Origin: Aestuariispira insulae
Lineage (GTDB): Bacteria > Pseudomonadota > Alphaproteobacteria > UBA8366 > Aestuariispiraceae
DNA: 64,000 nt
NCBI RefSeq assembly: GCF_003385955.1
Contig: NZ_QRDW01000006.1
Span: 124,001 to 188,000 of the forward strand
Direction of reading: 5' to 3'
Shown in pieces: positions 3,274-44,108 of this stretch. The notes under the pieces were generated by a model, which saw nothing but the letters and a program-made list of their open reading frames with translations, did not search any database and was not told where the DNA came from. Position numbers and translations under genes: made by a program. Position 1 is the stretch's first letter, and the number at the start of each line of letters is the position of its first letter.

Positions 3274-3291
3274 CGCAATTTGACGCCCGGC

Positions 3292-3319
3292 CTCTCAATC
3301 ACGAGATACCAGGCGTTTT
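3292..3319 (+). terminator. Weak hairpin between convergent TPR gene and dabA
   Basis: ACGCCCGG (3292-3299) can pair with CCAGGCGT (3309-3316) with one mismatch, followed by a short T run. It sits between the stop codons of two convergent genes, so it may end the asd-TPR transcript. Confidence 0.4.
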
Positions 3320-3322
3320 GTT

Positions 3323-5728: not shown

Positions 5729-5729
5729 C

Positions 5730-8970: not shown

Positions 8971-9009
8971 TAATGGAGGCGATGCCTCCTTTTTTAAGGA
9001 GAGAAGACC

Positions 9010-9435
9010 ATGACTGTTGAAAACGTACTTTACAAAACCACCATGAAATCCAGCGGCGGTCGGGAAGGCAGCTCGCAGGCGGAAGATGGCAGCCTGGAAC
9101 TGACCCTGTCGACGCCGAAGGAATTGGGCGGTGCCGGGGGCAACGGTACCAACCCGGAACAGCTTTTTGCCGCCGGATACAGCGCCTGCTTCCTGGGCGC
9201 GATGAAATTCGTCGCACAACGCGACAAACTGCCGATCTCACCGGATGTTTCGGTGCAGGCCACTGTTGGCATCGGCACGATCCCGACCGGTTTTGGCATC
9301 GAGGTTGATCTACTGATCGATTTGCCCGGTGTTGAGCGTGAACAAGCCCAGGAATTGATCAATCGCGCCCATATCGTCTGCCCCTATTCCAACGCGACCC
9401 AGGGCAATATCAATGTGCGCCTGAGCCTTGCCTGA
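9010..9435 (+). CDS. ohr: Organic hydroperoxide resistance protein Ohr
   Basis: The 141-residue protein has both cysteines of the thiol peroxidase pair: Cys60 in GYSACFLGAM and Cys124 in HIVCPYSNATQGN, with the catalytic Arg18 (GGREG) and Glu50 (NPEQLFAAGY) that activate Cys60. Ohr detoxifies organic and fatty-acid hydroperoxides in the cytoplasm, using lipoylated proteins as reductant in studied species. A strong AAGGAGA site precedes the ATG at 9010. Regulation by OhrR is supported by the operators at 8944-8970, and a hairpin terminator follows the gene. Confidence 0.96.
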   Translation: MTVENVLYKTTMKSSGGREGSSQAEDGSLELTLSTPKELGGAGGNGTNPEQLFAAGYSACFLGAMKFVAQRDKLPISPDVSVQATVGIGTIPTGFGIEVDLLIDLPGVEREQAQELINRAHIVCPYSNATQGNINVRLSLA

Positions 9436-9484
9436 GCTCTACCCTGCCCTAACACCATATCAACAAACTGGATTCAGGATACAG

Positions 9485-9513
9485 AAAGGTCCGGGAGAAA
9501 CGCCCGGGCCTTT
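9485..9513. terminator. Terminator between convergent ohr and fghA
   Basis: AAAGGTCCGGG (9485-9495) pairs with CCCGGGCCTTT (9503-9513) with one G-U, around a 7-base loop. T-rich sequence follows on the plus strand (TTTATTTATT). It may act in both directions, as the fghA stop lies 25 bases beyond. Confidence 0.8.
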
Positions 9514-9537
9514 ATTTATTCCCTATATGTCAGACAA

Positions 9538-10377
9538 TTAAGCTTTCAACCGCTTGGCATGCCAGGCAATGTGATCTTCGATGAAAGAGGCAATGAAATA
9601 GTAGCTGTGATCATAACCTTCCTGCATCCGCAGGGTCAGCGCCACCGATTTGCGCTCGCAAGCCCGGACAAAAACATCCGGCAATAGCTCTGTTTCCAAG
9701 AAGGTATCCGATGCCCCCTGATCGATCAGGATATCCCCGGACCAGCCAAAGGTTTCCACCAGCGCGCTGGCATCATTCTGGCCCCAGGTCGCGATATTAT
9801 CACCCAGATAATTATTAAACGCTTTTTGACCCCAAGGGCAGTTTGCCGGCGAAACGATCGGCGCAAAAGCGGAGAGGGTTTTAAACAGATCGGGATTTTT
9901 AATCGCCAGGGTCAATGCCCCATGGCCGCCCATGGAATGACCGGTGATCCCCATGCGATCAAGATCAACCGGAAAATTATTGGCCAGCACAGCCGGCAAT
10001 TCCTTCACCACATAATCTTCCATGCGATAATGTTTTGCCCAAGGATCTTCGGTGGCGTTGAGATAAAAACCCGCCCCTTTGCCCAGGTCATAGGCTTGAT
10101 CATCCGCCACGCCTTCCCCTCTGGGGCTGGTATCGGGCGCAACGACAATCACGCCATGTTCCGCTGCATAGCGCTGGGCGCCTGCCTTGGTGGTGAAATT
10201 TTCCCAGGTACAGGTCAGACCGGATAGAAACACCAAAACCGGCAATGGTTTCTTGGCCGCCTCGGCAGGCTGGAATACCGCAAATTCCATATCCGTACCG
10301 GTGCTGCTGCTCTGGTGGCGGTATACACCTTGGATTCCACCGAAGCATTTTTGCTCGCTGAGGGTTTCTATGGTCAT
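9538..10377 (-). CDS. fghA: S-formylglutathione hydrolase
   Basis: A 279-residue esterase-D-type alpha/beta hydrolase. The nucleophile is Ser148 in the elbow GHSMGGHGA, the acid is in IDQGASDTFLE, and the base is His257 in GYDHSYYF; the oxyanion region shows FLSGLTCTWENF. The enzyme hydrolyses S-formylglutathione to formate and glutathione, the second step of glutathione-dependent formaldehyde oxidation, and partners with the S-(hydroxymethyl)glutathione dehydrogenase at 12683 on the same strand. Two unrelated plus-strand genes lie between them, so they are not a simple operon. The length is normal. Confidence 0.95.
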   Translation of the reverse strand: MTIETLSEQKCFGGIQGVYRHQSSSTGTDMEFAVFQPAEAAKKPLPVLVFLSGLTCTWENFTTKAGAQRYAAEHGVIVVAPDTSPRGEGVADDQAYDLGKGAGFYLNATEDPWAKHYRMEDYVVKELPAVLANNFPVDLDRMGITGHSMGGHGALTLAIKNPDLFKTLSAFAPIVSPANCPWGQKAFNNYLGDNIATWGQNDASALVETFGWSGDILIDQGASDTFLETELLPDVFVRACERKSVALTLRMQEGYDHSYYFIASFIEDHIAWHAKRLKA

Positions 10378-10739
10378 CTCTGTCGGTCCATTCTGAACTA
10401 ATTCCTTGTTTTCCTGTTACATTCTTTTGACGCCATTGTCCATTCCAGCTTTCACGACGACCTGAGTCCCAGACATCAGCCGCTTAACCCGAATCTCGAA
10501 TACTTGGTCACAGGCCAATCAAACGCAAACAACAGAAAATCAAATAATGCATTCTATAATTCCGGATAGGAATCGCATAGAATAATCTATAGAATATTTA
10601 TAGCATGAAGTAGGATTATTCTCAAAATACTAGAATTCAGCAAGAATTCTCTTAGTGAATATCAAATACTGACTTGGTGTCAGAAACCTGTCTTCCGGTC
10701 TCCGGTGCCACAACAACGTCAATAGACCCGGGTGGAAAC
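10378..10739. other. A+T-rich divergent upstream region with inverted repeats
   Basis: This 362-base gap has no supported gene. It must hold the promoters of fghA (minus) and of the methyltransferase gene (plus). The stretch from about 10545 to 10670 is much richer in A and T than the neighbouring genes and contains nested repeats: ATTCTAT (10551) with ATAGAAT (10577), ATTCC (10559) with GGAAT (10569), and several ATAGAAT/TATAG copies up to 10605. AGAATTC also occurs twice near 10633-10650. These may be binding sites for an unknown regulator. Confidence 0.45.
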
Positions 10740-28132: not shown

Positions 28133-28783
28133 TCAACTCCCTACCCGGCCCTTGTCGCGCCAGACTTCTTCCCCGGACTTTAACGCCCAGCCAACAATCC
28201 GCTTCATGACTTTGCCAAGTGCTTCGTCATAAGCAACAATCACCATGTCCAAATTCTTATCTTCTGCCTTTACCGTCTTTTCCACGGTTTTGGAAGCGAC
28301 GATCACCCGTTCCGGCATCTTGATCAGTTTGGCATTCATCCGGACCCGCACCGTCGGCCCGGCACCATCTCCATCCAAATATTCCGCCTGAAATTCCCGT
28401 AAATCCGACTGCATGATGAAATCAGCACGAAGACCAATCGTCTGCCGACCAACCGAGACGATCTTGCCGGAGTTTTCAAACGATTCGATCAGCAGCGCCT
28501 GAATCATCTTCGGTGCCGAATCGGTCCAGTTGGCATGACTATAATATTTCAACTCCATCGCCGTCTGGCGCAGCGCGATCCTGGAATTGCCGATACCATT
28601 TGCCGTGATCGGCACATCTACCAACAGCTGCCAATCCACGGTTGGCAGGCCTTCTTCAAAGGTGCTTTTCGGGCTCAGGACAAAAATCCGTCCCGGATCG
28701 CCGCCGCCCGGCAATTCGACCGAACAGGCCGTGAACGCGGCCAACAATCCCAGGACCGCCATCTTATTCAGAATGTTCCTCAT
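28133..28783 (-). CDS. ABC-type transport auxiliary lipoprotein of the Mla-like system
   Basis: The 216-residue protein has a lipoprotein signal (LLAAFTACS, lipidated Cys20) and a body resembling the PqiC/ABC_trans_aux family: RIFVLSPKSTF near the start, then IALRQTAMELKYYSHANWTDSAPKMIQ in parts (ALRQTAMELKYYSHANWTDS), and RADFIMQSDLREFQAEY. These outer-membrane-facing lipoproteins work with MCE proteins in intermembrane lipid transport. Its ATG overlaps the end of the MCE gene by 4 bases, completing an operon of permease, ATPase, MCE and lipoprotein. Confidence 0.88.
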   Translation of the reverse strand: MRNILNKMAVLGLLAAFTACSVELPGGGDPGRIFVLSPKSTFEEGLPTVDWQLLVDVPITANGIGNSRIALRQTAMELKYYSHANWTDSAPKMIQALLIESFENSGKIVSVGRQTIGLRADFIMQSDLREFQAEYLDGDGAGPTVRVRMNAKLIKMPERVIVASKTVEKTVKAEDKNLDMVIVAYDEALGKVMKRIVGWALKSGEEVWRDKGRVGS

Positions 28784-29817
28784 TCCAGATCATATCCCTG
28801 CTGGTTGTCGCCAAAGAAAAAACGGGCCGGATCCCGTTCGATCTCGGCAGAAAGATGAGTCAGGTTGGAAACCAATAAGCGCGTTTCCGCCATCAATTGG
28901 GTGAATTCATAAAGCCCAGCATTGGTGAAATGGTCCACTTGCTCGCGATTGTCGGACAGAATATCGCCCGCCTCCGTCGCGGCATAGGTAATGGATTTCG
29001 CCGCTGCATCCATATTCTCGGCCACCTGGCGCATTTGCCGGGCCACCTCCACCATTTCATCCATGGTGACACGCGCCTTCCTGGCAGTCGGCCCAACCTC
29101 CGGCCGCAATTCCGCGGTCAGGGTCGAAATATCGCGCATGGTGCTATCGGCATTTTCCAAAATCGGCCGGACCCGCAACAAGGTTTCATTCATTTCCGCA
29201 GTCAATTTCCGGGCGTCGGCCAGCAATTGCTTCATCTCCCCCGATCCTTCCGCCAGCGCGCCGGAAAAGGCACTGACATTTTCCAGGGTTTTCGCGATAT
29301 TTTCCTGATTGGCGGGGTTAAGCAGCAGATTGGCCCGGTCCACCAGGGCAATGAATCGATTGATCAGTTCCGGCGCCTGGTCAAAAACCTCCTGCAATTG
29401 GGAAGAGGTCGCCTGGATCACCGGGTACTTTTCACCCTTTCCGGCTTTCAGATCGGGCGCATCGTGGGTCCCGCCAGAAATCTGGACATACCCGACCCCG
29501 GTCAGCCCCTGAAATTCCATACTGGCGCTGGCATCCTCCTTGATCGGGGTGTCCGATTGGATCTCGATCGTGACCCGCACCTGCTCCACATTATCCTTAT
29601 TGATGCCAATATCATGGACAACTCCGACCGGCACCCCGCGATAGCGCACCGGATTGCCTTCCTTCAATCCGGTGACCGACCCTTCGAAGAGAATATCGTA
29701 AAAGGCTGACTTCTGATCCAGCTCCGAACCTGAAAGCCAGATGATCGCCGCGACTAAGGTCACCAGACACCCCAGAACGAACGAGCCCACCAGAATATAA
29801 CTTGCTTTCGTTTCCAT
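28780..29817 (-). CDS. MlaD-like MCE-domain protein
   Basis: The 345-residue protein has an N-terminal helix (YILVGSFVLGCLVTLVAAII) and one MCE domain (about residues 38-118; YDILFEGSVTGLKEGNPVRYRGVPVG), then a long helical C-terminal region (about 150-330) with many heptad-like segments. MCE proteins form hexameric rings in the periplasm that carry phospholipids between membranes. The long helical tail is larger than in E. coli MlaD and resembles needle-forming or Mce-type variants. It sits between the ATPase gene (2-base gap) and the lipoprotein gene (4-base overlap). Confidence 0.92.
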   Translation of the reverse strand: METKASYILVGSFVLGCLVTLVAAIIWLSGSELDQKSAFYDILFEGSVTGLKEGNPVRYRGVPVGVVHDIGINKDNVEQVRVTIEIQSDTPIKEDASASMEFQGLTGVGYVQISGGTHDAPDLKAGKGEKYPVIQATSSQLQEVFDQAPELINRFIALVDRANLLLNPANQENIAKTLENVSAFSGALAEGSGEMKQLLADARKLTAEMNETLLRVRPILENADSTMRDISTLTAELRPEVGPTARKARVTMDEMVEVARQMRQVAENMDAAAKSITYAATEAGDILSDNREQVDHFTNAGLYEFTQLMAETRLLVSNLTHLSAEIERDPARFFFGDNQQGYDLE

Positions 29818-29819
29818 CG

Positions 29820-30602
29820 TCAGCGCGCTCCCGTCATGTGGCCAGCCCCGGAAGCGGAAACCGCCCGGGCGCGGGGACCGTGGAAATAGGCCTGGATCCA
29901 GGGATGATCATCCTTCATATGATCCGCCAGGGTCGAGACCCGGACCTTGCCATCCACCAGCACCGCAATACGGTCACAGATCGCGGCAAGGCTGTCGAGA
30001 TCATGGGTCACCATGAACACTGTCAGACCCAGGCTGGCCCGCAAGTCCAGGATCAACTGGTCAAAGGCCGCCGCCCCGATCGGATCCAGACCGGCGGTCG
30101 GCTCATCTAAGAACAGGATTTCAGGATCCATTGCCAACGCACGGGCGAGGCCCGCCCGTTTGCGCATGCCCCCCGATAACTGGGCGGGCAACTTGGCCCC
30201 GGCTTCAGGTGCCAACCCCACCATGGCAATCTTCATCGCGGCAATCCGGTCCAGAAGTCCTTCGGGCAGGGAGAGATTTTCCCGCAGCGGCACCTGAATA
30301 TTCTCCGCCACCGTCAGGGATGAAAACAAAGCACCATCCTGGAACAAAACCCCGATCCGGCTGCGCACCGCCTCGACTGCAGCGGGATCAGCCGCCTCGA
30401 TATCATGATCCAGCAGGCGTATATGGCCGGCACTTGGCTTTTGCAGGCCGATCACACTGCGTAACAAAACCGATTTCCCGGCCCCCGATCCGCCGACCAG
30501 CCCCATGATCTCGCCGCGTCGAACGATCAGATCGACACCTTTATGGACCTGATGCGCGCCAAACCGGTTCTCAAGACCCGATATTTCAATCACCCCATCC
30601 AT
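29820..30602 (-). CDS. MlaF-like ABC transporter ATP-binding protein
   Basis: The 260-residue ATPase has Walker A GGSGAGKS, the signature LSGGMRKRAGLARAL, Walker B EILFLDEPTAGLD and the H-loop MVTHD. The LSGGM(R/K)KR signature with the RFGAHQVHKGVDL start is typical of MlaF/Ttg2A ATPases of lipid transporters. Its ATG overlaps the TGA of the permease gene (TGATG). It powers phospholipid movement through the MlaE-like permease at the inner membrane. Confidence 0.93.
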   Translation of the reverse strand: MDGVIEISGLENRFGAHQVHKGVDLIVRRGEIMGLVGGSGAGKSVLLRSVIGLQKPSAGHIRLLDHDIEAADPAAVEAVRSRIGVLFQDGALFSSLTVAENIQVPLRENLSLPEGLLDRIAAMKIAMVGLAPEAGAKLPAQLSGGMRKRAGLARALAMDPEILFLDEPTAGLDPIGAAAFDQLILDLRASLGLTVFMVTHDLDSLAAICDRIAVLVDGKVRVSTLADHMKDDHPWIQAYFHGPRARAVSASGAGHMTGAR

Positions 30603-31792
30603 CAGCGTATCCCCAGAACCGACATCAAAATGGCGAAAACCGCCGTCGCCAGGATTACCAGCACAATGGATTCCACCACCGACAATGTTGTCATCCGACC
30701 GACACTTTCCGCACTGCGCTCCACCTTCAAACCTTCATAACAGCCGACAAGGGCAATGATCATCGCATGGACCGGCGCCTTGACCATACCGATCAGGAAA
30801 TCCCGCACATGAACCGCCTCCTGCAATTGTCGCAGATATTGCGGGAAGCTAATATCCAGTGCCGTCACGGTCGCCAGCGCACCGCCCAGAAGGCCGCATA
30901 AATCGGCAAAAAAGGTGAGCAGCGGTAGTGTGATCATCATTGCCAGAACTCGGGGCAGCACGAGGACCTCAATCGGATCCATGCCCAGGGTCTGCAAGGC
31001 GTCAATCTCCTCATTCACGCGCATGGTGCCAATCTGCGCGGTAAAGGCGGATCCGGAGCGCCCGGCCAACAGGATCGCGGTGATCAACACACCCGCTTCC
31101 TGCAAAATCGTCAGGCCGATCAGATTAACCGTAAACACTTCCGCGCCGAATTTGCGAAACTGATCTGCCATCAGATAGGCCAACACCACGCCGATCAGGA
31201 ATTGCAGCAGCCCGACGATCAACATGGCGTCCAGGCCGGTCTGTTCTATCTGGGTGATCAGGGCTTTGGGCCTGAATCGTCTGGGCTGGCGGACCGCGCG
31301 CCAGAATACGATAGTCACCAACCCCAGGAAATTTAAGAGGTCCCGCCCTTCCCGCAAAGCCTCAATGCTTCTGCGACCGACATTGCTGACCAGATCGCCC
31401 AAACCTGTATGTTTGCTATGCACATCCAGATGCCGGCCGGGGCTGCCCGCATCGCCAACTTGCGCCATCAAGGGTACATAGCGGTCAGAAATGCCATGAA
31501 AACCGATCTCGCATCCGTGCCCTTTGAGCATGTGGCCGGCCTGATGCAGCAGCATGGCCCCAGTTGAATCCAATTGGTTAACCTGGCCAAGGTTGATGAT
31601 CACCTGGCGGCCTTTGAAGTCCCTCAGGCGGCAGATTTCTTCCTCAAGAAAACGGCCATGACCAATCGTCCAGCGACCATTCGCCGACACCTGAAGCCGT
31701 GCGCCCTCCTCAACGATATCCAGCCATCCGCCGCTTCGTTCCACCCAGCCTCCCCTTTTTGTGCCTGGTCTCCAGATTGCGAAATGCTGCAT
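30602..31792 (-). CDS. MlaE-type permease with N-terminal STAS domain
   Basis: The 396-residue protein fuses a STAS domain (about residues 20-115; RQVIINLGQVNQLDSTGAMLL) to an MlaE/YrbE permease of about six helices (residues 145-395; FLIGVVLAYLMADQFRKFG and AILLAGRSGSAFTAQIGTMRVNEEID, quoted in part as LLAGRSGSAFTAQIGTM). In E. coli the STAS protein MlaB is separate and binds MlaF; here it is built into the permease, as in several other bacteria. First gene of the four-gene operon; the start lies 95 bases from the divergent apt gene. Confidence 0.92.
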   Translation of the reverse strand: MQHFAIWRPGTKRGGWVERSGGWLDIVEEGARLQVSANGRWTIGHGRFLEEEICRLRDFKGRQVIINLGQVNQLDSTGAMLLHQAGHMLKGHGCEIGFHGISDRYVPLMAQVGDAGSPGRHLDVHSKHTGLGDLVSNVGRRSIEALREGRDLLNFLGLVTIVFWRAVRQPRRFRPKALITQIEQTGLDAMLIVGLLQFLIGVVLAYLMADQFRKFGAEVFTVNLIGLTILQEAGVLITAILLAGRSGSAFTAQIGTMRVNEEIDALQTLGMDPIEVLVLPRVLAMMITLPLLTFFADLCGLLGGALATVTALDISFPQYLRQLQEAVHVRDFLIGMVKAPVHAMIIALVGCYEGLKVERSAESVGRMTTLSVVESIVLVILATAVFAILMSVLGIR

Positions 31793-33685: not shown

Positions 33686-34747
33686 CTATGGGCGGTTCGC
33701 CTCAAGTCTTCTTCTCGCCATTTCCAGATAAACATCGCGCCGGGCGCGGTTCACATGCCCCAACGGCCGGTGGGCGACAAGTCCGTTCCAAGGAGAGAAA
33801 GCCAGCTGTTCGGCCCTGGACATACTTTGTGCCACCGCCGTTTGATCGTGAGCGTCAATCACGATCCTCGCCAAAGGAATGAAGGCGGTCCCCTCCGGAT
33901 CCCAATGCACTGTGGCATCTTCAATCGGATGAGATTCGGGATCACGATGCAGATGAATGCCAAACTCGAATTGCCATCCCTTATCGGCCAAACGCTTTGC
34001 CAGATCTTCGCTAAACCCATTCCTGGAAATAACTGCCGCGCCGTTGCCTCTTGCGGGCAATGGCCCAGCCCGATCCAGTTCAATTGGCCGAACCATGTAT
34101 TTTACCGCAAGGTCATCCCCATGCGCATATGGCGTGGTGCTCCAATAACAGCTGGTCAGCAAAGACACCGGAGAGGCACTGGCAAAAGCCTGTGAACGGC
34201 GCAGCATCCCGCCATGACACAGCCTCAGCATCAACCATCCCTGCACCATCCAGAATAACCGGGGCAAAAACCGGATCGGATCCTTCCATTTTTTCAAAAA
34301 TGCCAGAATCCTGGTGAAATACCGGTTGAAGATCCTGTATTCCTCCAGGCTTCGCGTGAAGAAAACGGGATGATCCACCAACAGGAAATCCTGCTCGTTC
34401 GGGGCTCCAAAGCCAAGATGTTCCCCCGTCACGCCCTCCAGTTTGATCGACATGCCATGCGCATCAGCCTTGCGGTCATCATACCAGGTCCCGTTTGACA
34501 ACCGGACCCAGGCCTTGAACCGATCCGGTCTGGCAAAAATGCCATGTTTCAGATGATCGGGCAGATCGTCCCGGATGATAAAGCAGGCCGAAAGACAGCC
34601 GTGATGTTTGCCATGCTGCCCCCGTTGAGTGACGCCCTCCCGTTTGGCCAGGGTTTTGAAATTATCATCCACAATAGCCGAAATGATGCTTTCTTCATTC
34701 GGCGGGATTTCCTCAAATCCACCGCCGATATCTGTGGCCTCGCTCAC
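33686..34747 (-). CDS. Catalase-like haem protein (short catalase family, allene-oxide-synthase-like)
   Basis: The 353-residue protein is shorter than true catalases but keeps the haem core: distal histidine His45 in QRGQHGKHHG (compare RGFHAKG of catalases), WVRLSNGTWYDDRKADAHGMS noted by DDRKADAHGMSIKLEG, DHPVFFTRS, and an RxxxY proximal motif in RRDVYLEMARR near the C-terminus. Members of this mini-catalase group include coral allene oxide synthase and bacterial peroxide-using oxygenases acting on organic substrates. GTG at 34745-34747 is the start, directly after the cytochrome stop codon and with AAGGG seven bases ahead, so the two are co-translated. A fatty hydroperoxide substrate is inferred from the neighbouring COX-like gene. 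Confidence 0.8.
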   Translation of the reverse strand: MSEATDIGGGFEEIPPNEESIISAIVDDNFKTLAKREGVTQRGQHGKHHGCLSACFIIRDDLPDHLKHGIFARPDRFKAWVRLSNGTWYDDRKADAHGMSIKLEGVTGEHLGFGAPNEQDFLLVDHPVFFTRSLEEYRIFNRYFTRILAFLKKWKDPIRFLPRLFWMVQGWLMLRLCHGGMLRRSQAFASASPVSLLTSCYWSTTPYAHGDDLAVKYMVRPIELDRAGPLPARGNGAAVISRNGFSEDLAKRLADKGWQFEFGIHLHRDPESHPIEDATVHWDPEGTAFIPLARIVIDAHDQTAVAQSMSRAEQLAFSPWNGLVAHRPLGHVNRARRDVYLEMARRRLEANRP

Positions 34748-36154
34748 TTAAAGACCCTTCAGATATTCAAGCAGCGCCCGTTTTTCATCCGAAGGCAAAT
34801 CCGTGCCATAAACATGGCCTCCATTATTGTTGCCGGGTAAGGTCACATCGAACAGGAAACCGGTTTGGCAATCGGGTCCGACCCGGTCCAGGTCAAATTC
34901 GGCACATCCCCGGTAGAAGCGCGCTGAACGGTTAGATGGCTTCTTCAAGAGATCCGCCAAATTCGGCACGGAGCCGTTATGCAGATAGGGCCCTCGCGCC
35001 CAGATGCCGTCCAGTGGCGCGTTCACATATCCTTCGGTCGCCCGGTAATTGGAGAATTGATAGGAATAGCCCCGGCCAACATTGCTGAAATATTCCACCA
35101 TCTTCGGCGAGAAAAGATCCGCCCGTGCGGTGTCGGTCGCCAGCAAATCCTGATGGGTGACCTGTCCCAGTTTCACCGCCCCCGTATCATGGCAGACACC
35201 GCATCCGGCCTTGCGGTAAATCTGCTCGCCCCGTGCGGCCAGCCCCTGGTCGATCTCGCCCGGGAAAGGCGGCGGTGGCAGATCCCGAAGCCAATCCGCA
35301 ACCCGTTCCACGCTTGAATGTTCAAACAGCCATTCCGATGCCCCCCCGGCCAGGGCCGCCGAAATATTGCGTTCCGTGAGCGAGGCGTTATTGCCGTCCC
35401 AATGGAACCAGCCATCTTCGCGGATGCCCTGGTTCCAGACCGAAGGGAAATCCACGGCCCCAACCAAACCATCCTGTTCCGGAGCCAGCCCCCAGCGGGC
35501 ACGCCAGAAATTGCCGGCATCCGTGCGGCCCGGACCGTGATCCGGACGCTTGTCCATCCAGGCCAGGCTGGCGACCAATCCGCCGACTTCTTCTTCCAGC
35601 CGGTTAAAAACCACATAGCGGAACGCCAATTTGTTGAACCAACTGAAAGGGCGGCCATTTTTCTCAGCACTTTCAAAAACCGCGTCCGGGGTCAACCTGG
35701 GATCGCGGCTGGCCGCCACCAGGAACCGGATATAGGCCTGCAGGTCGAGGCCGTTGGCAGGCGCACCCATGATCAGGCGCGGCTCGCCCGCCACCATCAC
35801 CTGATCCGTATGGCAGGTCGCGCAATTGAAACCGACGCGCTGGACACCATATCGGCGCACACTGACACCAATTGGCAGCTCCTGCCCCTCTTCCTGGAGA
35901 AAGCCGAAATCCGCATAACCGCCTGGCAATTGGTCCTTAAAAATCTCCGGCAGTTCCCGCCAGATGAGATAGGGATAACCATCCACCTCCGCACCGATGG
36001 AACCGTACTTGAAATGGTCGGTCACATCATCGAAATGGGCCGGCGGCCACGGTTTGATGGTCAGTCGTTTAAACTCCAGGGTCAGAACCGCCCCCAGCAG
36101 GATCAATACATAGAGCAGCGCCAGCCAGCCCATTGTGCCTTTTTCACGCTTCAC
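34748..36154 (-). CDS. Membrane-anchored dihaem cytochrome c protein
   Basis: About 468 residues: an N-terminal helix (WLALLYVLILLGAVLTLEF) anchors a periplasmic domain with two haem c sites, NCATCHTDQ (residues 111-115) and GCGVCHDTG (318-322). The layout, with YNAPLDGIWARGPYLHNGSVP-like sequence (APLDGIWARGPYLHNGSVPN), resembles dihaem peroxidase/thiol-oxidase relatives, but no known subfamily is certain. GTG at 36154 is chosen because AAGGAG lies ten bases ahead; ATG at 36133 would remove only seven residues. The frame is open much further upstream, into the divergent gene, but that stretch is not coding. It likely passes electrons to or from the catalase-like or COX-like haem proteins. 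Confidence 0.8.
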   Translation of the reverse strand: MKREKGTMGWLALLYVLILLGAVLTLEFKRLTIKPWPPAHFDDVTDHFKYGSIGAEVDGYPYLIWRELPEIFKDQLPGGYADFGFLQEEGQELPIGVSVRRYGVQRVGFNCATCHTDQVMVAGEPRLIMGAPANGLDLQAYIRFLVAASRDPRLTPDAVFESAEKNGRPFSWFNKLAFRYVVFNRLEEEVGGLVASLAWMDKRPDHGPGRTDAGNFWRARWGLAPEQDGLVGAVDFPSVWNQGIREDGWFHWDGNNASLTERNISAALAGGASEWLFEHSSVERVADWLRDLPPPPFPGEIDQGLAARGEQIYRKAGCGVCHDTGAVKLGQVTHQDLLATDTARADLFSPKMVEYFSNVGRGYSYQFSNYRATEGYVNAPLDGIWARGPYLHNGSVPNLADLLKKPSNRSARFYRGCAEFDLDRVGPDCQTGFLFDVTLPGNNNGGHVYGTDLPSDEKRALLEYLKGL

Positions 36155-36235
36155 GGCCACCGCACTCCTTATTAATTGAGTTTGATCACCAAACACTATA
36201 TACAATTTATAGAAGAAATCCATGGGAGCATTTAT

Positions 36236-38200
36236 ATGAAAACGATAAGTGCGACTTCCAAGAGACGGCTTCTCAACCTGATCTGTGTGATCGTCGGCAC
36301 CATGATGCTCTATCGCGGCCTGATTAATCTGACGCAATATCCGGGAAATTGGGAACGTATCCTGTTGGGGCCGATCTTTCTGGGCGGTGTCTACGGCATT
36401 TATCTCATGTACCGGCGCAAACGCATCGGCTTTTGGATCTTCACTGCCCTCAATTTCCTGGTCGGGATCTGGTTCATTTATATCCTGGAGGATATCTGGT
36501 CTCATCATGTCCTGCCCCATATCGTTTTTTCGGCAATCTTTCTGCCCTTCTATTGCGACATGGAACCCGGCAGCGGTCGGCTTGGCCAATTTTTGGGAAA
36601 GTCTGGCCGCCGGTTGGTCAATATCGAGATTATTACCCGGCTGATCATCGCGCTTCCCTGGCTGCATAAACTGGTGAACCGGCTGATCATTGATGGTTTG
36701 GTAAGCATTGTGCGCACAAGGCCGCACCCCTGGAGCACGGTCCATGATTATGTATCCTGGCGCGGGTTGACGGACCGGAATTGGAGTGCGCGGCACATGC
36801 CGCCAACCGATGCCCCCCACAGCGGCAAGCCAGCGCCAAAAGATCTGGCCGCTCTGTTTAGCCGGGGAACGAGACCTCAGGCCCATTGCCCAAAATCAAC
36901 GCTGTTATTCCCGACTTTTGCGCAATATCTGACCGACGGTTTCATCCGGACCGTCTCCGACCAATCCGACCCTGATTTTTTCAAGAAGAATACATCCAAT
37001 CATCAGATCGATCTCTGCCCGCTATACGGCCGCACTGTCGAACAGACCCAGGTCTTGCGGGTGAATAATCCGCAGCGCCAGGATTTCGGGAAACTGAAAT
37101 CGCAAATGATCGGGGACGAGGAATTCGCCCCCTATCTTTTTCTAAACGGCAAACCTGACCCTCAATTTACCACCCTGGATGAACCTTTGGGCCTGGACGA
37201 TATTCTGAAACAATGCAACAGCAGCGATCCAAAGATCAAAAATCACGCAATTCTGCGGCGCGACCACCTTTTCGCCTTTGGCGGGGACCGGGTGAATTCA
37301 GTGCCCCAGGCATCAATGCTGAACACCTTGTTATTGCGGGAACATAACCGCTTGGCCGGGGAATTCGTGACCAGAAATCCAGAATGGGATGATGACCGGG
37401 TCTTTGAGACCGCACGCAATGTGGTGATTGTAGAATTCATCAAAATTGTCGTTGAGGAATATATCAACCATATCGCGCCGCTGCGTCTTCCCCTGATGGC
37501 TGATCCTTCCATCGCCTGGCAGGCACCCTGGAACAAACCGAACTGGATCACCACTGAATTCAGCCTGCTTTACCGCTGGCATTCGCTGATCCCCGACACC
37601 GTCACCTGGGGCGGCTCCGACTATCCCGTCGAACTGACATTCATGAACAACCTGCCCTTGATCAATGGCGGCATGCTTCAGGGTTTTTTGGATATGAGCG
37701 CGCAAAAGGCCGGTGCTTTGGGGCCGTTTAACACCAATAAAAGCCTGGTCGAACGGATCGAGGTTCCCTCCATAGAACAGGGCCGGGCCTGCCAGTTACA
37801 GTCCTTCGTCAATTATCAAGGCTATATCCAGCGCACGCCTCCGGCCAGTTTCGCGGAATTGTCCAGCGACCCGGCGGTTGTGCAATTACTGGACACACTC
37901 TATGACGGGCGGATCGAGGATATGGATTATTACATCGGCCTGTTTGCGGAAGACCGGATTGAAAATTCACCCCTGCCGCAAACCATCCTGACCATGGTGG
38001 CCATTGATGCCTTCTCCCAGGCATTAACAAACCCGCTCTTATCGGAGCATGTGTTTAACAGCGAGACTTTTTCCGATTATGGCTGGGAACAATTGCGGGG
38101 GGTTTCCTGTCTTGCCGATCTGCTAGCGCGGAATAGCAGTGCCTCGCCGGAACAATTACGAGATGTCCACATGACCCGTCGGGATTGGCGTTTTAAGTGA
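36236..38200 (+). CDS. Membrane-anchored cyclooxygenase-like haem peroxidase
   Basis: The 654-residue protein starts with about four hydrophobic helices (residues 12-107) and continues into an animal-type haem peroxidase domain like prostaglandin synthase. FPTFAQYLTDGFIRT matches the distal-haem region, NTSNHQIDLCPLYGRT the next block, MLNTLLLREHNRLAGEF the signature helix, and FSLLYRWHSLIPDT holds the proximal His449 and Tyr446, which align with His388 and radical Tyr385 of COX-1. The distal His207 of COX is Asp234 here, while the adjacent Gln (Gln230) is kept. ATG at 36236 is set by GGGAG eight bases before. The usual membrane-binding EGF part is replaced by the N-terminal helices. It probably oxygenates a fatty acyl substrate, inferred from family. 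Confidence 0.85.
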   Translation: MKTISATSKRRLLNLICVIVGTMMLYRGLINLTQYPGNWERILLGPIFLGGVYGIYLMYRRKRIGFWIFTALNFLVGIWFIYILEDIWSHHVLPHIVFSAIFLPFYCDMEPGSGRLGQFLGKSGRRLVNIEIITRLIIALPWLHKLVNRLIIDGLVSIVRTRPHPWSTVHDYVSWRGLTDRNWSARHMPPTDAPHSGKPAPKDLAALFSRGTRPQAHCPKSTLLFPTFAQYLTDGFIRTVSDQSDPDFFKKNTSNHQIDLCPLYGRTVEQTQVLRVNNPQRQDFGKLKSQMIGDEEFAPYLFLNGKPDPQFTTLDEPLGLDDILKQCNSSDPKIKNHAILRRDHLFAFGGDRVNSVPQASMLNTLLLREHNRLAGEFVTRNPEWDDDRVFETARNVVIVEFIKIVVEEYINHIAPLRLPLMADPSIAWQAPWNKPNWITTEFSLLYRWHSLIPDTVTWGGSDYPVELTFMNNLPLINGGMLQGFLDMSAQKAGALGPFNTNKSLVERIEVPSIEQGRACQLQSFVNYQGYIQRTPPASFAELSSDPAVVQLLDTLYDGRIEDMDYYIGLFAEDRIENSPLPQTILTMVAIDAFSQALTNPLLSEHVFNSETFSDYGWEQLRGVSCLADLLARNSSASPEQLRDVHMTRRDWRFK

Positions 38201-38359
38201 TGGGCACGCATTCTTGCGACAATGGCTGGCGGTTGTTTTGCCCATTTTTCTGAACACGGCCCCTACTTGACCAGTGCTCATAGGGCGGTTGCATGGAACC
38301 GGTTTCCGAAATAGCCTGTGCACCTATCCTCATTTCTGCCGAATTGTCAGACCTGCCCC

Positions 38360-39181
38360 ATGAAATGCACCATCAATAATGCCGAAATCCATTATGAAAT
38401 CCGCGGAGAAGGCCGGCCGATTGTTCTGATCCATGGATTTTGCCTGGACCGGCGGGCCCTGACCCATCCCCTGGAGCCGATCCTGGAGGCGCAAGGCGGT
38501 TGGAAACGGATTTATCTGGATCTGCCCGGCATGGGCCGCAGCCCCGCCTCCAAATCCATTGAAAACTCGGATCAGATGCTGGCCAGTGTCTCGGCCTTCA
38601 TTGGCCAGATTCTGGGCGACGAGACCTACACGCTTTTTGGCTATTCCTACGGCGGCTACCTGGCCCAGGGTTTGGTGCGGGAACAGCCGGAACGCATCAC
38701 GGGTGTGGCCCTGCTCTGCCCTGTTATCTTCGCCCCGCATGAGGAACGAAGCCTGCCGCCGGAAACCTGCCTGGTCCGAGACGATGCCTTCTTGGATGCC
38801 ATCCCCGCGGACCAGCGCGCGGAATTTGAAACCAATACCGTGATCCAGACGCAAGCCGTTTGGGAACGGACCCAACGGGAGATCCAAGCCGGGCTTGATT
38901 GTGCAAAAGGGGATTATTGCGACCGGCTCCAGGCTTTGGGATACCGGTTTTCCTTTCCGGTTTTTCCCCTGTCCAAACCCTTTGATAAGCCATCTTTGGT
39001 CCTGACCGGGCGGCAGGATAACATTGTCGGCTCCCTCGACCAATTCAACCTGGCGGAAAGCTACCCGCGCGCCACTATCGCCAGCCTGGACCGGGCCGGC
39101 CACCACCTGCAGATCGAGCAGGATCGCCTGTTTGATATCCTGGTGGCGGACTGGCTGGAGCGCGTTCGCCTGGAAAGGTGA
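38360..39181 (+). CDS. Alpha/beta hydrolase
   Basis: The 273-residue protein has the alpha/beta hydrolase plan: oxyanion region LIHGFCLDRR, nucleophile Ser96 in FGYSYGGYLAQ, acid in LTGRQDNIVGS and base in DRAGHHLQIEQ. The start at 38360 is chosen over 38318 because the upstream stretch has no similarity; no strong ribosome site is visible. It follows the COX-like gene by 158 bases on the same strand and may act on the same lipid pathway, for example as an esterase, but the gap leaves this open. It converges on the LprI-like gene. Confidence 0.85.
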   Translation: MKCTINNAEIHYEIRGEGRPIVLIHGFCLDRRALTHPLEPILEAQGGWKRIYLDLPGMGRSPASKSIENSDQMLASVSAFIGQILGDETYTLFGYSYGGYLAQGLVREQPERITGVALLCPVIFAPHEERSLPPETCLVRDDAFLDAIPADQRAEFETNTVIQTQAVWERTQREIQAGLDCAKGDYCDRLQALGYRFSFPVFPLSKPFDKPSLVLTGRQDNIVGSLDQFNLAESYPRATIASLDRAGHHLQIEQDRLFDILVADWLERVRLER

Positions 39182-40198: not shown

Positions 40199-41518
40199 TT
40201 AGCGTTCGCGCAAAGCGTTGTCTTTTGCTTTCAGGATGGGCTTCATGAGGTAATCAAGGACGGTTTTTTGCCCGGTCAGGATGTCGACCGTGGCGGTCAT
40301 CCCGGTCCGGATCGGCTTGTCCGCGCCCAGTTTGGTATCCGCCGTGCGGAGCCGAATTCGGTAAAAGGTCTCACCCTGTTCATCTGTGATGGTATCGGGA
40401 CTGATATCCACCAGGGTCGCGTCCAGACCGCCATAAATTGAAAAATCATAGGCGCTGACCTTGACCACCGCCGGCAGACCAGGCCAAAGCTGGGCCCGGT
40501 CGGCGGGTCGGATTCGGGCTTCAACCAAAAGCTTGTCTTCCAGCGGTACGATCTCAACCAGATCATCACCAGGCCGGACCACGCCGCCGATGGTGTTTTT
40601 CAACACCTGTTTGACGGTGCCACGCACTGGAGAACGCACATCGGTCCGGACCGCGCGATCCACACCGGCGGTGATCGCTTCTTCCAGCGCGGAGGCTTCC
40701 ACCTGCACCTGGTTCAACAATTGCTGAGCCTCGGTCCGGAAGGCCTGGCGTTTCTCGTCCACGCGGCCCTTGGCTTCGGCCACCTGGGTCCGGGTTCTGG
40801 GTATAGCCAGCTGCACACTGGAAATCTCGGAATTCAGATCCTGCAGCTTCTGCTCCACCCGATAAAGATCCAGGATCGGGGAGATCCCCTCATCCACCAG
40901 CGGTTTCAGCAGGTCATATTCCTTCTGGGCAATCTGGCGGGATTTGCGCAATTGCGTAATCCGGGCATTCAGCTCGTTCAATTCCTGCAGCTTCTGTTGA
41001 TGCTGATTGGCCAGGATTTTCACCTGTTGGGCCAGTTGCGAGCGCCTGGCCTCAAACAGGGACTGTTCCTGGCGGGCGATATCCGGCGCGGTATCCACAA
41101 CGATATCCGGGAAATCGATCTCCATCGCGCCGCTGATCTCGGCTTTGAGACGGGCAATCTGCCCCTGGAGGTTCATGGATTGCTTGCGTTTTTCTTCCAA
41201 CTCGGCTTCGGCGGACCGGTTTTCAATGCGCAACAGGACTTCTCCCGCCTGCACTTCCTGGCCTTCCTGGATCAGGAGATCGCTGATGATGCCGCCTTCC
41301 AGATGCTGAACCACCTTGGTCTGGCCTGAGGGGATGATTTTCCCTTCGCCCCGCGTCACCTCATCCAGCTCAGCATTATACGCCCAGATGACAAAAATCG
41401 CGAAAAAGGCGACGATGAAAAACAGCAACAGATGCGCAACGCGGCTAGTGCCGCGCCCGACAATCGGCCCCATCTCACTATCGGCTATATCCCTTTCCCA
41501 GCTTCTATCATCCGTCAT
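40199..41518 (-). CDS. Type I secretion membrane-fusion protein (HlyD family)
   Basis: The 439-residue protein has a short cytoplasmic tail, one helix (LLLFFIVAFFAIFVIWAYNAE), a biotinyl-lipoyl half-motif VVQHLEGGIISDLLIQEGQEV, long coiled-coil arms (about residues 95-285) and a C-terminal beta-barrel domain with VRSPVRGTVKQVL. This is the HlyD/LapC plan, linking the ABC exporter (gene 46 bases upstream) to TolC across the periplasm. The presence of the giant adhesin gene in the same block supports its cargo as that adhesin. Confidence 0.95.
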   Translation of the reverse strand: MTDDRSWERDIADSEMGPIVGRGTSRVAHLLLFFIVAFFAIFVIWAYNAELDEVTRGEGKIIPSGQTKVVQHLEGGIISDLLIQEGQEVQAGEVLLRIENRSAEAELEEKRKQSMNLQGQIARLKAEISGAMEIDFPDIVVDTAPDIARQEQSLFEARRSQLAQQVKILANQHQQKLQELNELNARITQLRKSRQIAQKEYDLLKPLVDEGISPILDLYRVEQKLQDLNSEISSVQLAIPRTRTQVAEAKGRVDEKRQAFRTEAQQLLNQVQVEASALEEAITAGVDRAVRTDVRSPVRGTVKQVLKNTIGGVVRPGDDLVEIVPLEDKLLVEARIRPADRAQLWPGLPAVVKVSAYDFSIYGGLDATLVDISPDTITDEQGETFYRIRLRTADTKLGADKPIRTGMTATVDILTGQKTVLDYLMKPILKAKDNALRER

Positions 41519-41564
41519 CGGATATCTTCCTTCATCGCCCCATCCATAATGGAGCTATATTCTA

Positions 41565-44108
41565 TCACACTTTGGCTGTCTGGATTCGGCCGCTGGCCAA
41601 TGCTTCCATCACCGCGTCCTTCGGCCCGTCCGCCACCACCCGGCCACCATCCATGACGATCAAGCGGTCCACCAGGCTGAGCAGGGAACCGCGATGGGTC
41701 ACCATGATCAGGGTCTTGCCAGTCAGGATCGTGCCCAGCCGGGCCTTGAAACGGCTTTCGGACGTGTTGTCCATGGAGCTGGTCGGCTCATCAAACAACA
41801 GGATTGGCGGATCGGCCAGCAGGGCGCGTGCCACGGCCACCGCCTGGCGCTGACCGCCCGACAGATTGGCCCCGCGTTCGCCCACGGGCATATCCAAGCC
41901 CATGGGATGCTTGGAAGCAAATTCATCCACACCGGCAATGCGGGACGCCCGTAAAATTGCCGCATCATCGGCATAGGGCATGCCCAGCGCGATATTTTCC
42001 TTCACTGACCCGAAGAAGAGATAAGAATCCTGTGGCACGGTGCCGATATTGCGGCGCAGATCCGCCGGATCCACCTGTCGGGTATCGGTGCCGTCAATCA
42101 TGACCGATCCCTCAGTCGGGTCATGCAGTCCCATGATCAGACGTTCAACCGTGCTTTTCCCCGATCCGATCCGGCCGATAATCCCGATTTTTTCACCCGC
42201 CTCGATATTGAAGCTGACATCGGTCAATGCCTGGGTCTGGGCATCGGGATAGCCGAAGGAGACATTCTTGAATTCAATATGGCCGGCAAAATTCGGCCGG
42301 GTCACGAAATTGCGCCCCTGGGGCCGCTCGACCGGAATCTGCATCATGTCATTCAGGCCGGACAAAGCCTGCTTCGCCTGATGGAACCGGGTCGCGATCG
42401 CCGCTACCTGGCCAAGTGGCGCCAGCGCGCGGCCCGACAGGATGGTACAGGCCACCAGCGCGCCCACGGTCATCTCGCCTTCCTGGATCTGATAAACCCC
42501 GATCACAACAACACCAACGGTCACGAACTGCATGGCGGCACCGGAGAAATTCATCGCCGCCTGCGCCCATCTGGTCGACAGCATGGAGGATTTCGCGGTC
42601 TTGTTGACAAAAACCTCCCAGGCGCGCTGCATCTTACTTTCCGCCGCGGTCAATTTGATGGTTTCAATACCGGTGATGGCCTCTACCAAGATCGCGTGTT
42701 TCTGCTGGCTTTCCCGCTGGGTTTCCTTGACCACACGCTGCATCGGCACCTGCATGATCAGGCCGACCACAACCACCATGAAGACCACCGCCGCCGGCAC
42801 GGCAACGATATACCCGTTGCCGATGACATATACGATCGCCAGGAACAGAAAGATGAAGGGAAGATCGATCAGGGCGGTCAGGGTGCTGGAAGTGAAGAAA
42901 TCCCGGAGGCTTTCAAATTCCCGCATGGAGTTGGCCAGGGCCCCCGCCGATTGCGGGCGATGGGCCATTTTCATGCCCAGCATCTGCTGGAACAATCGTG
43001 CCGCGATCCGCGTATCCGCCGTCTTGCCCGCCACATCCACCAGATAGCCGCGCAGCAGTTTCAGAACAAAATCAAACGTAAAGACAATGCCGACCCCGGC
43101 GGCCAGCACCCAAAGGGTTTCTTCCGCGAAATTGGGCACCACCCGGTCATAGACATTCATCACAAAGAGCGGGCTGGCGATGGCAAAGGAGTTGATCACC
43201 AGAGCCGCCACAATCACTTCGATATAAAGCGGCCAGGAGGCAAAAACCGTTCCCCAAAACCACCCTTTGGGATCGGCGATTTTTGTATCTTCCGCCCGGG
43301 TGTCATAAATGAATTCCGGCCGTGCAAAAAGCGAATAGCCGATATATTCCCGCTGCAGTTCGTCAAAGGCGACCACCTGGCTGCCTGATCCCATTTCCGG
43401 CAGAATGATCGTGGCTTTCTGGCCGGCGGAAATCTGGGTCAGCACCGCCGCCCTCTGACCGGACAGCAGAATCACACAAGGCAGGGCCAATCGGGTGATG
43501 TTGGTAAGCTCCCGGCGTTGCAACTTTGCGGAAATGCCCGCACGCTCCGCGGCCCGGACAAACAGATCCGGTGTCAGGTGGCCTTCATCCATCGGCAAAC
43601 CGGAGGTGAGCGCATCGGATGAGATCGGCCGGTCAAGCAGCGAACAAAGGATCGTCAAACAACCCAAAAGTGGATCATCATTAAGCCCAGGCTGCGGCTT
43701 TACCTGCCAACTGGGGCCTTTTTCCCGGTCGGTTTTACCCGTCTCATCGGATTTCTGGTCTTCCGGATCTTGCGGAACCCGCTTCGTTTCCGTCTGTCCG
43801 ATCCCGGTATCAGCCTTGTTTTCATCCGTCACGCCTGCCGGTTTTGGCACGGCAAGCAGGTCCCTTGGCCCTTTTCCGGCATTGGCATCATTGGCAGCAG
43901 GCGGGGTGTTGAGCAGACCGTCGCCCTCAGTTTTCGGGCGGCCATGGGGTCTGTCCCCGACGCCCGCCGGCTGGCCTTTTACAGCGGAATCCGTTGATTT
44001 TTCAGACTCTTTCGCCCCTTTCCGGCCATCGGCCATAGCCGATGTCACGGAATTCAGCACTTCCGCCAATTTCCTGGCCTCTTCCTGAGGTGACTTGCTT
44101 TCGCTCAC
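41565..44108 (-). CDS. Type I secretion ABC exporter with C39-like domain (LapB type)
   Basis: The 847-residue protein has a long disordered, charged N-terminus (residues 1-140, rich in Lys, Asp, Pro), a peptidase C39-like domain (about 142-270) whose active cysteine motif is replaced (DDPLLGCLTILCSLL), six helices (about 295-560) and an ATPase domain: Walker A GRIGSGKST, signature NLSGGQRQAVAVARAL, Walker B ILLFDEPTSSMD. A degenerate C39 domain is typical of LapB/RaxB-like exporters of RTX adhesins that hold the substrate without cleaving it. The long N-terminal extension is unusual. It exports the adhesin encoded just upstream at 44300. Confidence 0.95.
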   Translation of the reverse strand: MSESKSPQEEARKLAEVLNSVTSAMADGRKGAKESEKSTDSAVKGQPAGVGDRPHGRPKTEGDGLLNTPPAANDANAGKGPRDLLAVPKPAGVTDENKADTGIGQTETKRVPQDPEDQKSDETGKTDREKGPSWQVKPQPGLNDDPLLGCLTILCSLLDRPISSDALTSGLPMDEGHLTPDLFVRAAERAGISAKLQRRELTNITRLALPCVILLSGQRAAVLTQISAGQKATIILPEMGSGSQVVAFDELQREYIGYSLFARPEFIYDTRAEDTKIADPKGWFWGTVFASWPLYIEVIVAALVINSFAIASPLFVMNVYDRVVPNFAEETLWVLAAGVGIVFTFDFVLKLLRGYLVDVAGKTADTRIAARLFQQMLGMKMAHRPQSAGALANSMREFESLRDFFTSSTLTALIDLPFIFLFLAIVYVIGNGYIVAVPAAVVFMVVVVGLIMQVPMQRVVKETQRESQQKHAILVEAITGIETIKLTAAESKMQRAWEVFVNKTAKSSMLSTRWAQAAMNFSGAAMQFVTVGVVVIGVYQIQEGEMTVGALVACTILSGRALAPLGQVAAIATRFHQAKQALSGLNDMMQIPVERPQGRNFVTRPNFAGHIEFKNVSFGYPDAQTQALTDVSFNIEAGEKIGIIGRIGSGKSTVERLIMGLHDPTEGSVMIDGTDTRQVDPADLRRNIGTVPQDSYLFFGSVKENIALGMPYADDAAILRASRIAGVDEFASKHPMGLDMPVGERGANLSGGQRQAVAVARALLADPPILLFDEPTSSMDNTSESRFKARLGTILTGKTLIMVTHRGSLLSLVDRLIVMDGGRVVADGPKDAVMEALASGRIQTAKV

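Follow-up and report, generated by a model that had tools for sequence, protein, structure and literature searches.

A COX-family dioxygenase-like protein with a four-helix membrane domain, clustered with catalase-related and dihaem cytochrome genes in Aestuariispira insulae

We analyzed a 64,000-nucleotide stretch of the Aestuariispira insulae genome (RefSeq assembly GCF_003385955.1, contig NZ_QRDW01000006.1, positions 124,001 to 188,000 of the forward strand; hereafter the window, in which all positions are counted from the first letter) that carries three adjacent haem-protein genes. A cyclooxygenase (COX)-like protein is encoded on the plus strand (36236-38200; 654 aa, PF03098 2.9e-36). 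Divergent from it, across 102 bp of intergenic sequence between the two start codons (36134-36235, no strand assigned), lies the minus-strand gene for a dihaem cytochrome c of the RoxA/cytochrome c peroxidase (CcP) type (34748-36133; 461 aa, over the cut-offs of NF040606 and PF21419). Its TAA stop directly adjoins the GTG start of a third gene, also on the minus strand, for a catalase-related mini-haemoprotein that we refer to as the mini-catalase (33686-34747; 353 aa). The initial annotation, made from the sequence of the window alone, had placed the three genes at these positions and pointed out the stop-start adjacency, and both hold. Within the 4.82 Mb host genome, the COX-like protein is the single member of PF03098, and the cytochrome profile (A3) likewise finds one member.

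By sequence, the best solved relatives of the COX-like protein are the prostaglandin H synthases PGHS-1 and PGHS-2, with PGHS-1 at 6.8e-48 in a PDB search. An AlphaFold2 model (pLDDT 90, from 43 rows) gave COX-2 as its best solved match in Foldseek (3.8e-29; TM-score on target 0.79-0.82), and plant alpha-dioxygenases ranked after it, near 1e-17. Residues Q230, D234, Y409, F442, Y446, R447, W448, H449, D591 and A592 were invariant in 45 of 45 family rows; they include Q230 and D234 of the distal haem motif Q230-Y-L-T-D234 (36923-36937, plus strand) and all of the Y446-R-W-H449 motif (37571-37582, plus strand). Alignment with PGHS-1 (COX residue numbering) places D234 on His207, Y446 on the catalytic Tyr385, H449 on the proximal His388 and A592 on Ser530, while in the HMMER alignment COX Arg120 falls on Leu155. 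Identity as a prostaglandin H synthase (COX-1 or COX-2), which the initial annotation had suggested, was rejected on the grounds of Asp234 in place of the distal His207, Ala592 in place of Ser530 and Leu155 in place of Arg120.

The invariant residues match motifs described for the cyanobacterial linoleate 10S-dioxygenase (10S-DOX; PMC13049297). That enzyme has FTDSF where COX has FTHQF, its Y305 and Y342 (in FxxxY342) correspond to Tyr348 and Tyr385, and it ends in I483GxDA487FxQA. That text also cites Brash et al. 2014 for the processing of the Nostoc 10S-hydroperoxide by a catalase-related lyase encoded by a separate gene. Compared with these printed motifs rather than with a full sequence, the COX-like protein resembles the Nostoc punctiforme enzyme (B2J5P4) in being a COX-family haem dioxygenase by PF03098 and fold, in its distal Asp motif (FTDSF/LTDGF), in its equivalents of Tyr348 (Y409), Tyr385 and His388, in its terminal D591-A592-F-S-Q-A, which agrees with DAFxQA, and in having a separate catalase-related partner gene, as with the 10S-hydroperoxide lyase. 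It differs in its four-helix membrane domain, in the dihaem cytochrome gene beside it, in Val588 for Ile483, and in a Tyr (within DYYIGL) at COX position 504, which is Phe in 10S-DOX. We take the last two as specificity differences that do not define the family, and 10S chemistry may therefore not be assumed; by its sequence, the protein is a 10S-DOX-like dioxygenase, with no regiochemistry implied.

The mini-catalase was harder to place. Taken alone, it matched no Pfam or NCBIfam model at E ≤ 0.01, and hence not the true catalase family (PF00199), and the sole row of a single-sequence PDB search was a designed TIM barrel, matched weakly and repeatedly. A family profile of 15 rows, by comparison, found MAP-2744c (3e4w; 1.2e-15), true catalases (9.5e-12 and weaker) and coral allene oxide synthase (AOS; 1.3e-10). 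The structural model, of middling quality (pLDDT 74, 12 rows), ranked MAP-2744c (3e4y; 1.2e-10) first and coral AOS (1u5u; 6.9e-9) next in Foldseek, and a VIA structure comparison gave Z = 21.7 for 3e4y (rmsd 3.6, 282 aligned), 20.2 for 3dy5, 20.0 for 1u5u and at most 19.2 for catalases, a small margin. The comparison with COX-2 and coral AOS proposed in the initial annotation thus bears out the former as the nearest match of the COX-like protein and puts the latter second, after MAP-2744c, for the mini-catalase. H45 and Y340 are invariant in profiles A2 and A7 and correspond to the distal His and the proximal Tyr of the catalase fold; Y340 would be the haem ligand. Aligned with human catalase, Gln44, the residue before the distal His, stands where catalase has Val74, and Asp125 stands in place of the distal Asn148. 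We take the distal Asn to be present in coral AOS; it is kept in the relatives at loci L067, L079 and L084, and is Asp125 in the window. The mini-catalase is not an ordinary catalase and, judged by Gln44 and Asp125, does not simply duplicate the coral AOS; the specific identification as an allene oxide synthase, implied by the initial annotation, is not supported.

The cytochrome carries haem motifs (CXXCH) at residues 104 and 311 and PYLHNGSVP at 382. It matches NF040606, 'di-heme-cytochrome C peroxidase', at 8.4e-55 (186.9 bits against a cut-off of 150), and falls far below the RoxA, RoxB and RoxC equivalog cut-offs (57-73 bits against 900-1000). Its family profile found RoxA (4b2n) in the PDB at 1.5e-28 and bacterial CcP at 7e-4, and the stretch HWDGNNASLTER aligns with WDG..LAEQ of bacterial CcP, a region in which RoxA is gapped. 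As described in PMC4496055, the RoxA-like dihaem group also contains the periplasmic Pseudomonas aeruginosa oleate 10S-DOX PA2077 and diol synthase PA2078, which bear the PYLHNGSV signature. It is accordingly conceivable that the dihaem protein is itself a periplasmic fatty-acid oxygenase or diol synthase, working either sequentially or in parallel with the COX-like enzyme: it shares with these proteins and RoxA the two CXXCH motifs, the signature and a RoxA-like C-terminal domain, its haem motifs are 207 residues apart, near the 199 of RoxA, and it is N-terminally anchored and probably exported, as PA2077 and PA2078 are. We nevertheless regard this as quite unlikely, as the protein is shorter than PA2077 and PA2078 and keeps the CcP-like WDG..LxE stretch. 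Its relationship to these two enzymes (FadCcp) was judged from the published description, by the shared PYLHNGSV signature.

The COX-like protein begins with an N-terminal four-helix membrane domain (aa 1-113; 36236-36574, plus strand), delineated by helices 6-33, 44-59, 63-82 and 88-101 of the AlphaFold2 model and by its charge pattern. The window protein belongs to a clade of 14 rows (SH-aLRT 92), 13 of which have this domain; the remaining member, L083, has an N-terminus unlike it. The cytochrome gene adjoins the COX-like gene in 7 of these 13 (the window, L021-L025 and L032), six of them with an intact adjacent catalase gene. No adjacent cytochrome accompanies the other six (L026-L030 and L066). 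Relative to the window, identity in the membrane domain (aa 12-113) is 64-70% in the six other cytochrome-bearing rows and 26-41% in the six without, whereas identity in the catalytic domain (aa 140-654) is 56-59% and 55-58%, respectively; we attach no probability to this co-conservation. The motif W88-S-HH-VLP-H95 (36497-36520, plus strand), at the putative periplasmic start of helix 4, likewise occurs as WxHHVLPH in 7 of 7 members with the cytochrome and in none of the 6 without. At E ≤ 1e-10, the A3 cytochrome was single-copy in all four bearer genomes tested and absent from all seven genomes whose clade member lacks it beside the COX-like gene (L026-L030, L066 and L083). Since L021 retains the domain beside a mere catalase remnant (with another mini-catalase elsewhere in its genome), the domain follows the cytochrome, not the neighbouring catalase. 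Together, the greater conservation of the membrane domain over the catalytic domain where the cytochrome is present, and its decay where it is absent, point to a coupling with the exported cytochrome. A search of 190 genomes at E ≤ 0.001 gave no other carrier of the domain; a weak match in L233 (E 2.6e-4) sits in an ABC permease-like frame, named by eye, and was rejected.

In most rows, basic residues mark the N-terminus of the membrane domain, the surroundings of the helix 2-3 loop and the segment that follows helix 4, a pattern which suggests that both ends of the domain face the cytosol. The catalytic domain would then be cytosolic, consistent with an anchorless catalase and with catalase-COX fusions, and the His cluster would lie at the periplasmic side. 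The mini-catalase of the window showed no hydrophobic anchor by hydropathy, and it and the COX-like protein are probably both cytosolic. In the cytochrome, hydropathy showed a single anchor, a hydrophobic stretch at the N-terminus (aa 2-20 in the frame used). C-type cytochromes are matured on the periplasmic side, so that an N-terminally anchored protein of this type is probably periplasmic; with its two partners probably in the cytosol, the simple supply or removal of electrons envisaged in the initial annotation is unlikely.

Two further readings turn on this arrangement. Through H90, H91 and H95, the four-helix domain might exchange electrons or radicals with the exported dihaem cytochrome, such that a periplasmic redox enzyme would control either the peroxide tone or the radical state of the fatty-acid dioxygenase in the cytosol, which feeds the catalase-like enzyme. 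We consider this unlikely; if true, it would constitute a transmembrane haem relay in the COX superfamily. Alternatively, the dihaem enzyme might play a MauG-like part, oxidizing or maturing residues in the membrane domain. The WDG..LxE motif, which also occurs in MauG, and the co-conservation of cytochrome and domain would fit such a role, but no specific target residue was identified in the domain, we know of no precedent for maturation of this kind, and the proposal appears highly improbable.

To survey the neighbourhoods more broadly, species genomes were scanned with the COX alignment, which gave 394 relatives, and the best 79 loci were kept for all locus counts. The catalase profile was built from trimmed domains, the untrimmed version having recruited catalase-COX fusions; rechecking the 79 loci at E ≤ 0.01 with profiles A2, A7, A3 and A5 left the set unchanged. 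A weak extra cytochrome match in L050 (E 0.0017), and a neighbour clustering in which COX, catalase and other, unrelated L069 and L071 frames fell together, were left out of the counts. The divergent three-gene layout of the window was found again in 5 of the 79 loci (L022-L025 and L032, three of them in the genus Mameliella); it recurs in Rhodobacteraceae, and is rearranged in Ramlibacter, with a degenerate catalase, and in Paracoccus yeei, where the gene before the catalase encodes a dihaem relative of the window cytochrome (1.3e-27). The full set of three genes is present in the window, these five loci and P. yeei. The cytochrome adjoins the COX-like gene in 6 of the 79 loci (L021-L025 and L032). 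An intact catalase is found in 11 (L022-L025, L032, L038 at 1.3 kb, L067, L068, L079, L081 and L084), two of which encode catalase and COX-like parts as one in-frame fusion (888 aa in L068; 881 aa in L084, Methylorubrum rhodesianum); the long COX open reading frames of L092 and L093 look over-extended and were not accepted as fusions. Catalase remnants stand beside intact COX-like genes in two loci (L021, 13526-14044; L078, 425-769), suggesting that the catalase partner has been lost repeatedly. In a quick COX tree of 92 rows, the catalase state changes at least seven times (remnants and L038 counted as catalase) and the P450 state once.

A cytochrome P450 was detected in two of the 79 loci (L092 and L099). 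Across the tree it replaces the catalase in one clade of five (L012, L013, L014, L092 and L099), directly upstream of the COX-like gene and with the motifs FGxGHHECLG and GAIET. Of 12 plasmid records with a COX-like gene, seven have an adjoining catalase (four P. yeei, M. currus and two Ruegeria), three, all rhizobial, have a P450 (by annotation; L012 by profile), and in the two from Acaryochloris neither was detected. That the window genes are accidental neighbours is very hard to maintain: most COX-like relatives lack the arrangement, yet it recurs in distinct genera with different gene order, more than chance would give, and members without the cytochrome have a decayed membrane domain.

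Cytochrome-catalase pairs also occur away from COX. When 299 genomes of the phylum were searched at E ≤ 1e-20, 30 matched catalase profile A2, 27 cytochrome profile A3 and 3 COX, and all three families were found only in the genome of the window and in G228, where the COX gene is on another contig. The cytochrome adjoins the catalase in 12 of 36 catalase loci (the window and 11 fetched), nine of them in family f166, and ten neighbours of the pairs without COX included no common lipid gene. By eye, an N-terminal hydrophobic segment was seen on 9 of 9 f166 catalases and 4 of 4 f166 cytochromes inspected. Such pairs raise the possibility of a peroxide-defence module, in which cytochrome and mini-catalase would remove organic hydroperoxides and the COX-like protein would be a peroxidase partner or a mere source of peroxide. 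Its appeal lies in these pairs and their hydrophobic N-termini, in the likeness of the mini-catalase model to MAP-2744c, which we take to be an organic-peroxide-dependent peroxidase, and in the mini-catalase genes that adjoin a DyP-like cluster (c3) in 5 of 36 loci (L211, L212, L214, L215 and L216; the L214 member matches TIGR01413 at 1.4e-22, under the model cut-off). The COX-like family, however, lacks the distal His and has the radical-site residues of a dioxygenase, the fusions suggest direct product hand-over, and no N-terminal hydrophobic segment or export signal was seen by eye on any of the 8 COX-linked catalases inspected. We thus hold peroxide defence to be possible, but on balance unlikely.

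Two loci from these searches are recorded here in their own right. On the symbiotic plasmid pNGR234a of Sinorhizobium fredii NGR234 (L231, 5956-12009), a catalase, a small gene, a dihaem CcP and a patatin-like phospholipase (Pfam match just under the cut-off) stand in a row. The L222 locus (G263; features at 2767-4311, 4790-6646 and 8979-10559) has no mini-catalase; in it a relative of the window cytochrome (1.5e-115) is transcribed divergently from another kind of peroxidase, full-length and animal-type (PF03098 4.8e-109), and a further dihaem cytochrome lies close by.

The explanation that we favour, with somewhat more confidence than doubt, is a membrane-tethered oxylipin unit composed of a 10S-DOX-type dioxygenase, a catalase-related hydroperoxide enzyme and an exported dihaem peroxidase. 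Peroxide would oxidize the haem of the COX-like protein, the resulting Tyr446 radical would abstract hydrogen, and addition of O2 would yield a fatty-acid hydroperoxide, which the cytosolic catalase-related protein may cleave, isomerize or reduce. The exported CcP/RoxA-type cytochrome would work with the four-helix domain from the periplasmic face, either by acting on hydroperoxide that is released or through a redox exchange involving the His cluster of the domain. Family and fold assignments, key residues, the recurrence of the neighbourhoods, the fusions and the co-conservation of the membrane domain with the cytochrome were computed; from them we infer the substrate, regiochemistry, hydroperoxide fate, topology and cytochrome role, the last being the weakest step. 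Of the oxylipin pathway ventured in the initial annotation, the core of a fatty-acid haem dioxygenase with a catalase-related hydroperoxide enzyme finds support in the Nostoc 10S-DOX motifs, the fold and the fusions, although the COX-catalase pair is not new.

Several observations weigh against the oxylipin unit. Catalase, P450 and cytochrome all went undetected in the fetched DNA of 64 of the 79 COX-like loci, where absence denotes no match to these profiles and other partners may escape, given a rough open reading frame picker in GC-rich loci and some short contigs. Of 37 genomes tested (36 that have no intact catalase next to the COX-like gene, L092 and L099 with their P450 among them, plus L038 with its nearby mini-catalase), 6 had a mini-catalase anywhere at E ≤ 1e-20, so the COX-like family does not need these partners. 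Among 190 genomes of the class, two have a COX-like gene (E ≤ 1e-20) and eight a mini-catalase (E ≤ 1e-15), both being present only in that of the window, and in the 299-genome sample 11 of the 12 cytochrome-catalase pairs lack an adjacent COX gene, leaving the window as the sole case. The condition that the initial annotation set for its own refutation, rare co-occurrence elsewhere, is to this extent half borne out, the exception being the membrane-anchored subfamily. The pocket of the mini-catalase departs from that of true catalase through Asp125 in place of the distal Asn, so that the reactions proposed for it are candidates. The likely compartments of the cytochrome and of the other two proteins differ. 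Finally, the six members that lack the cytochrome group in a single clade, which reduces the co-conservation to roughly one evolutionary event, and the quick COX tree drew long-branch warnings, one of them for the window with L021.

Other genes of the window lie close by. An Mla/MCE-type lipid transport operon (MlaE permease, ATPase, MlaD and an auxiliary lipoprotein; 28133-31792) is located about 2 kb from the mini-catalase gene. An alpha/beta hydrolase gene (38318-39181; PF00561 3.4e-18) follows the COX-like gene co-directionally after 117 bp and is possibly a co-transcribed esterase. Further on, a HlyD-type adaptor and an ABC exporter form a type I secretion-like pair (40199-44108).

Set against known systems, the dioxygenase-catalase tandem is already known, and to our knowledge has been characterized only in a cyanobacterium; we take the Nostoc genes to be adjacent and the YRWH motif to be held in common. 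The coral AOS-8R-lipoxygenase of Plexaura homomalla (1u5u/3dy5) and MAP-2744c (3e4w/3e4y) share the catalase fold, and the coral protein is fused to a fatty-acid oxygenase, but that partner is a lipoxygenase, whereas the one in the window is of the COX family. Fungal linoleate diol synthases, dioxygenase-P450 fusions according to PMC13049297, similarly join a COX-family dioxygenase to a haem enzyme for the hydroperoxide; the window partner is catalase-like instead, and the P450 in the clade of its relatives is a separate gene with a monooxygenase-like GAIET motif. A cyanobacterial catalase-haem dioxygenase fusion is mentioned in a 2024 Chem Rev article (PMC11719350), so the fusion as such may not be new, and PMC4420034 calls bacterial cyclooxygenases, as of 2015, putative only. 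In the open-access literature searched, judged by title and start of abstract, we did not find the three-gene set, the membrane domain or its co-conservation with the cytochrome described. New here are the recurrence of the three-gene layout, the swaps of partner (fusions and P450) and the conservation of the membrane domain following the cytochrome.

Our analysis thus extends the COX-catalase tandem to Proteobacteria, where the partners appear interchangeable (catalase, fused catalase, P450 or none) and one subfamily has a further haem protein linked to a membrane domain. These natural variants may help to explain how COX-family dioxygenases acquire hydroperoxide-processing partners and how an enzyme with a distal Asp is activated, and would bear on a possible coupling of bacterial lipid oxygenation to redox enzymes of the periplasm.

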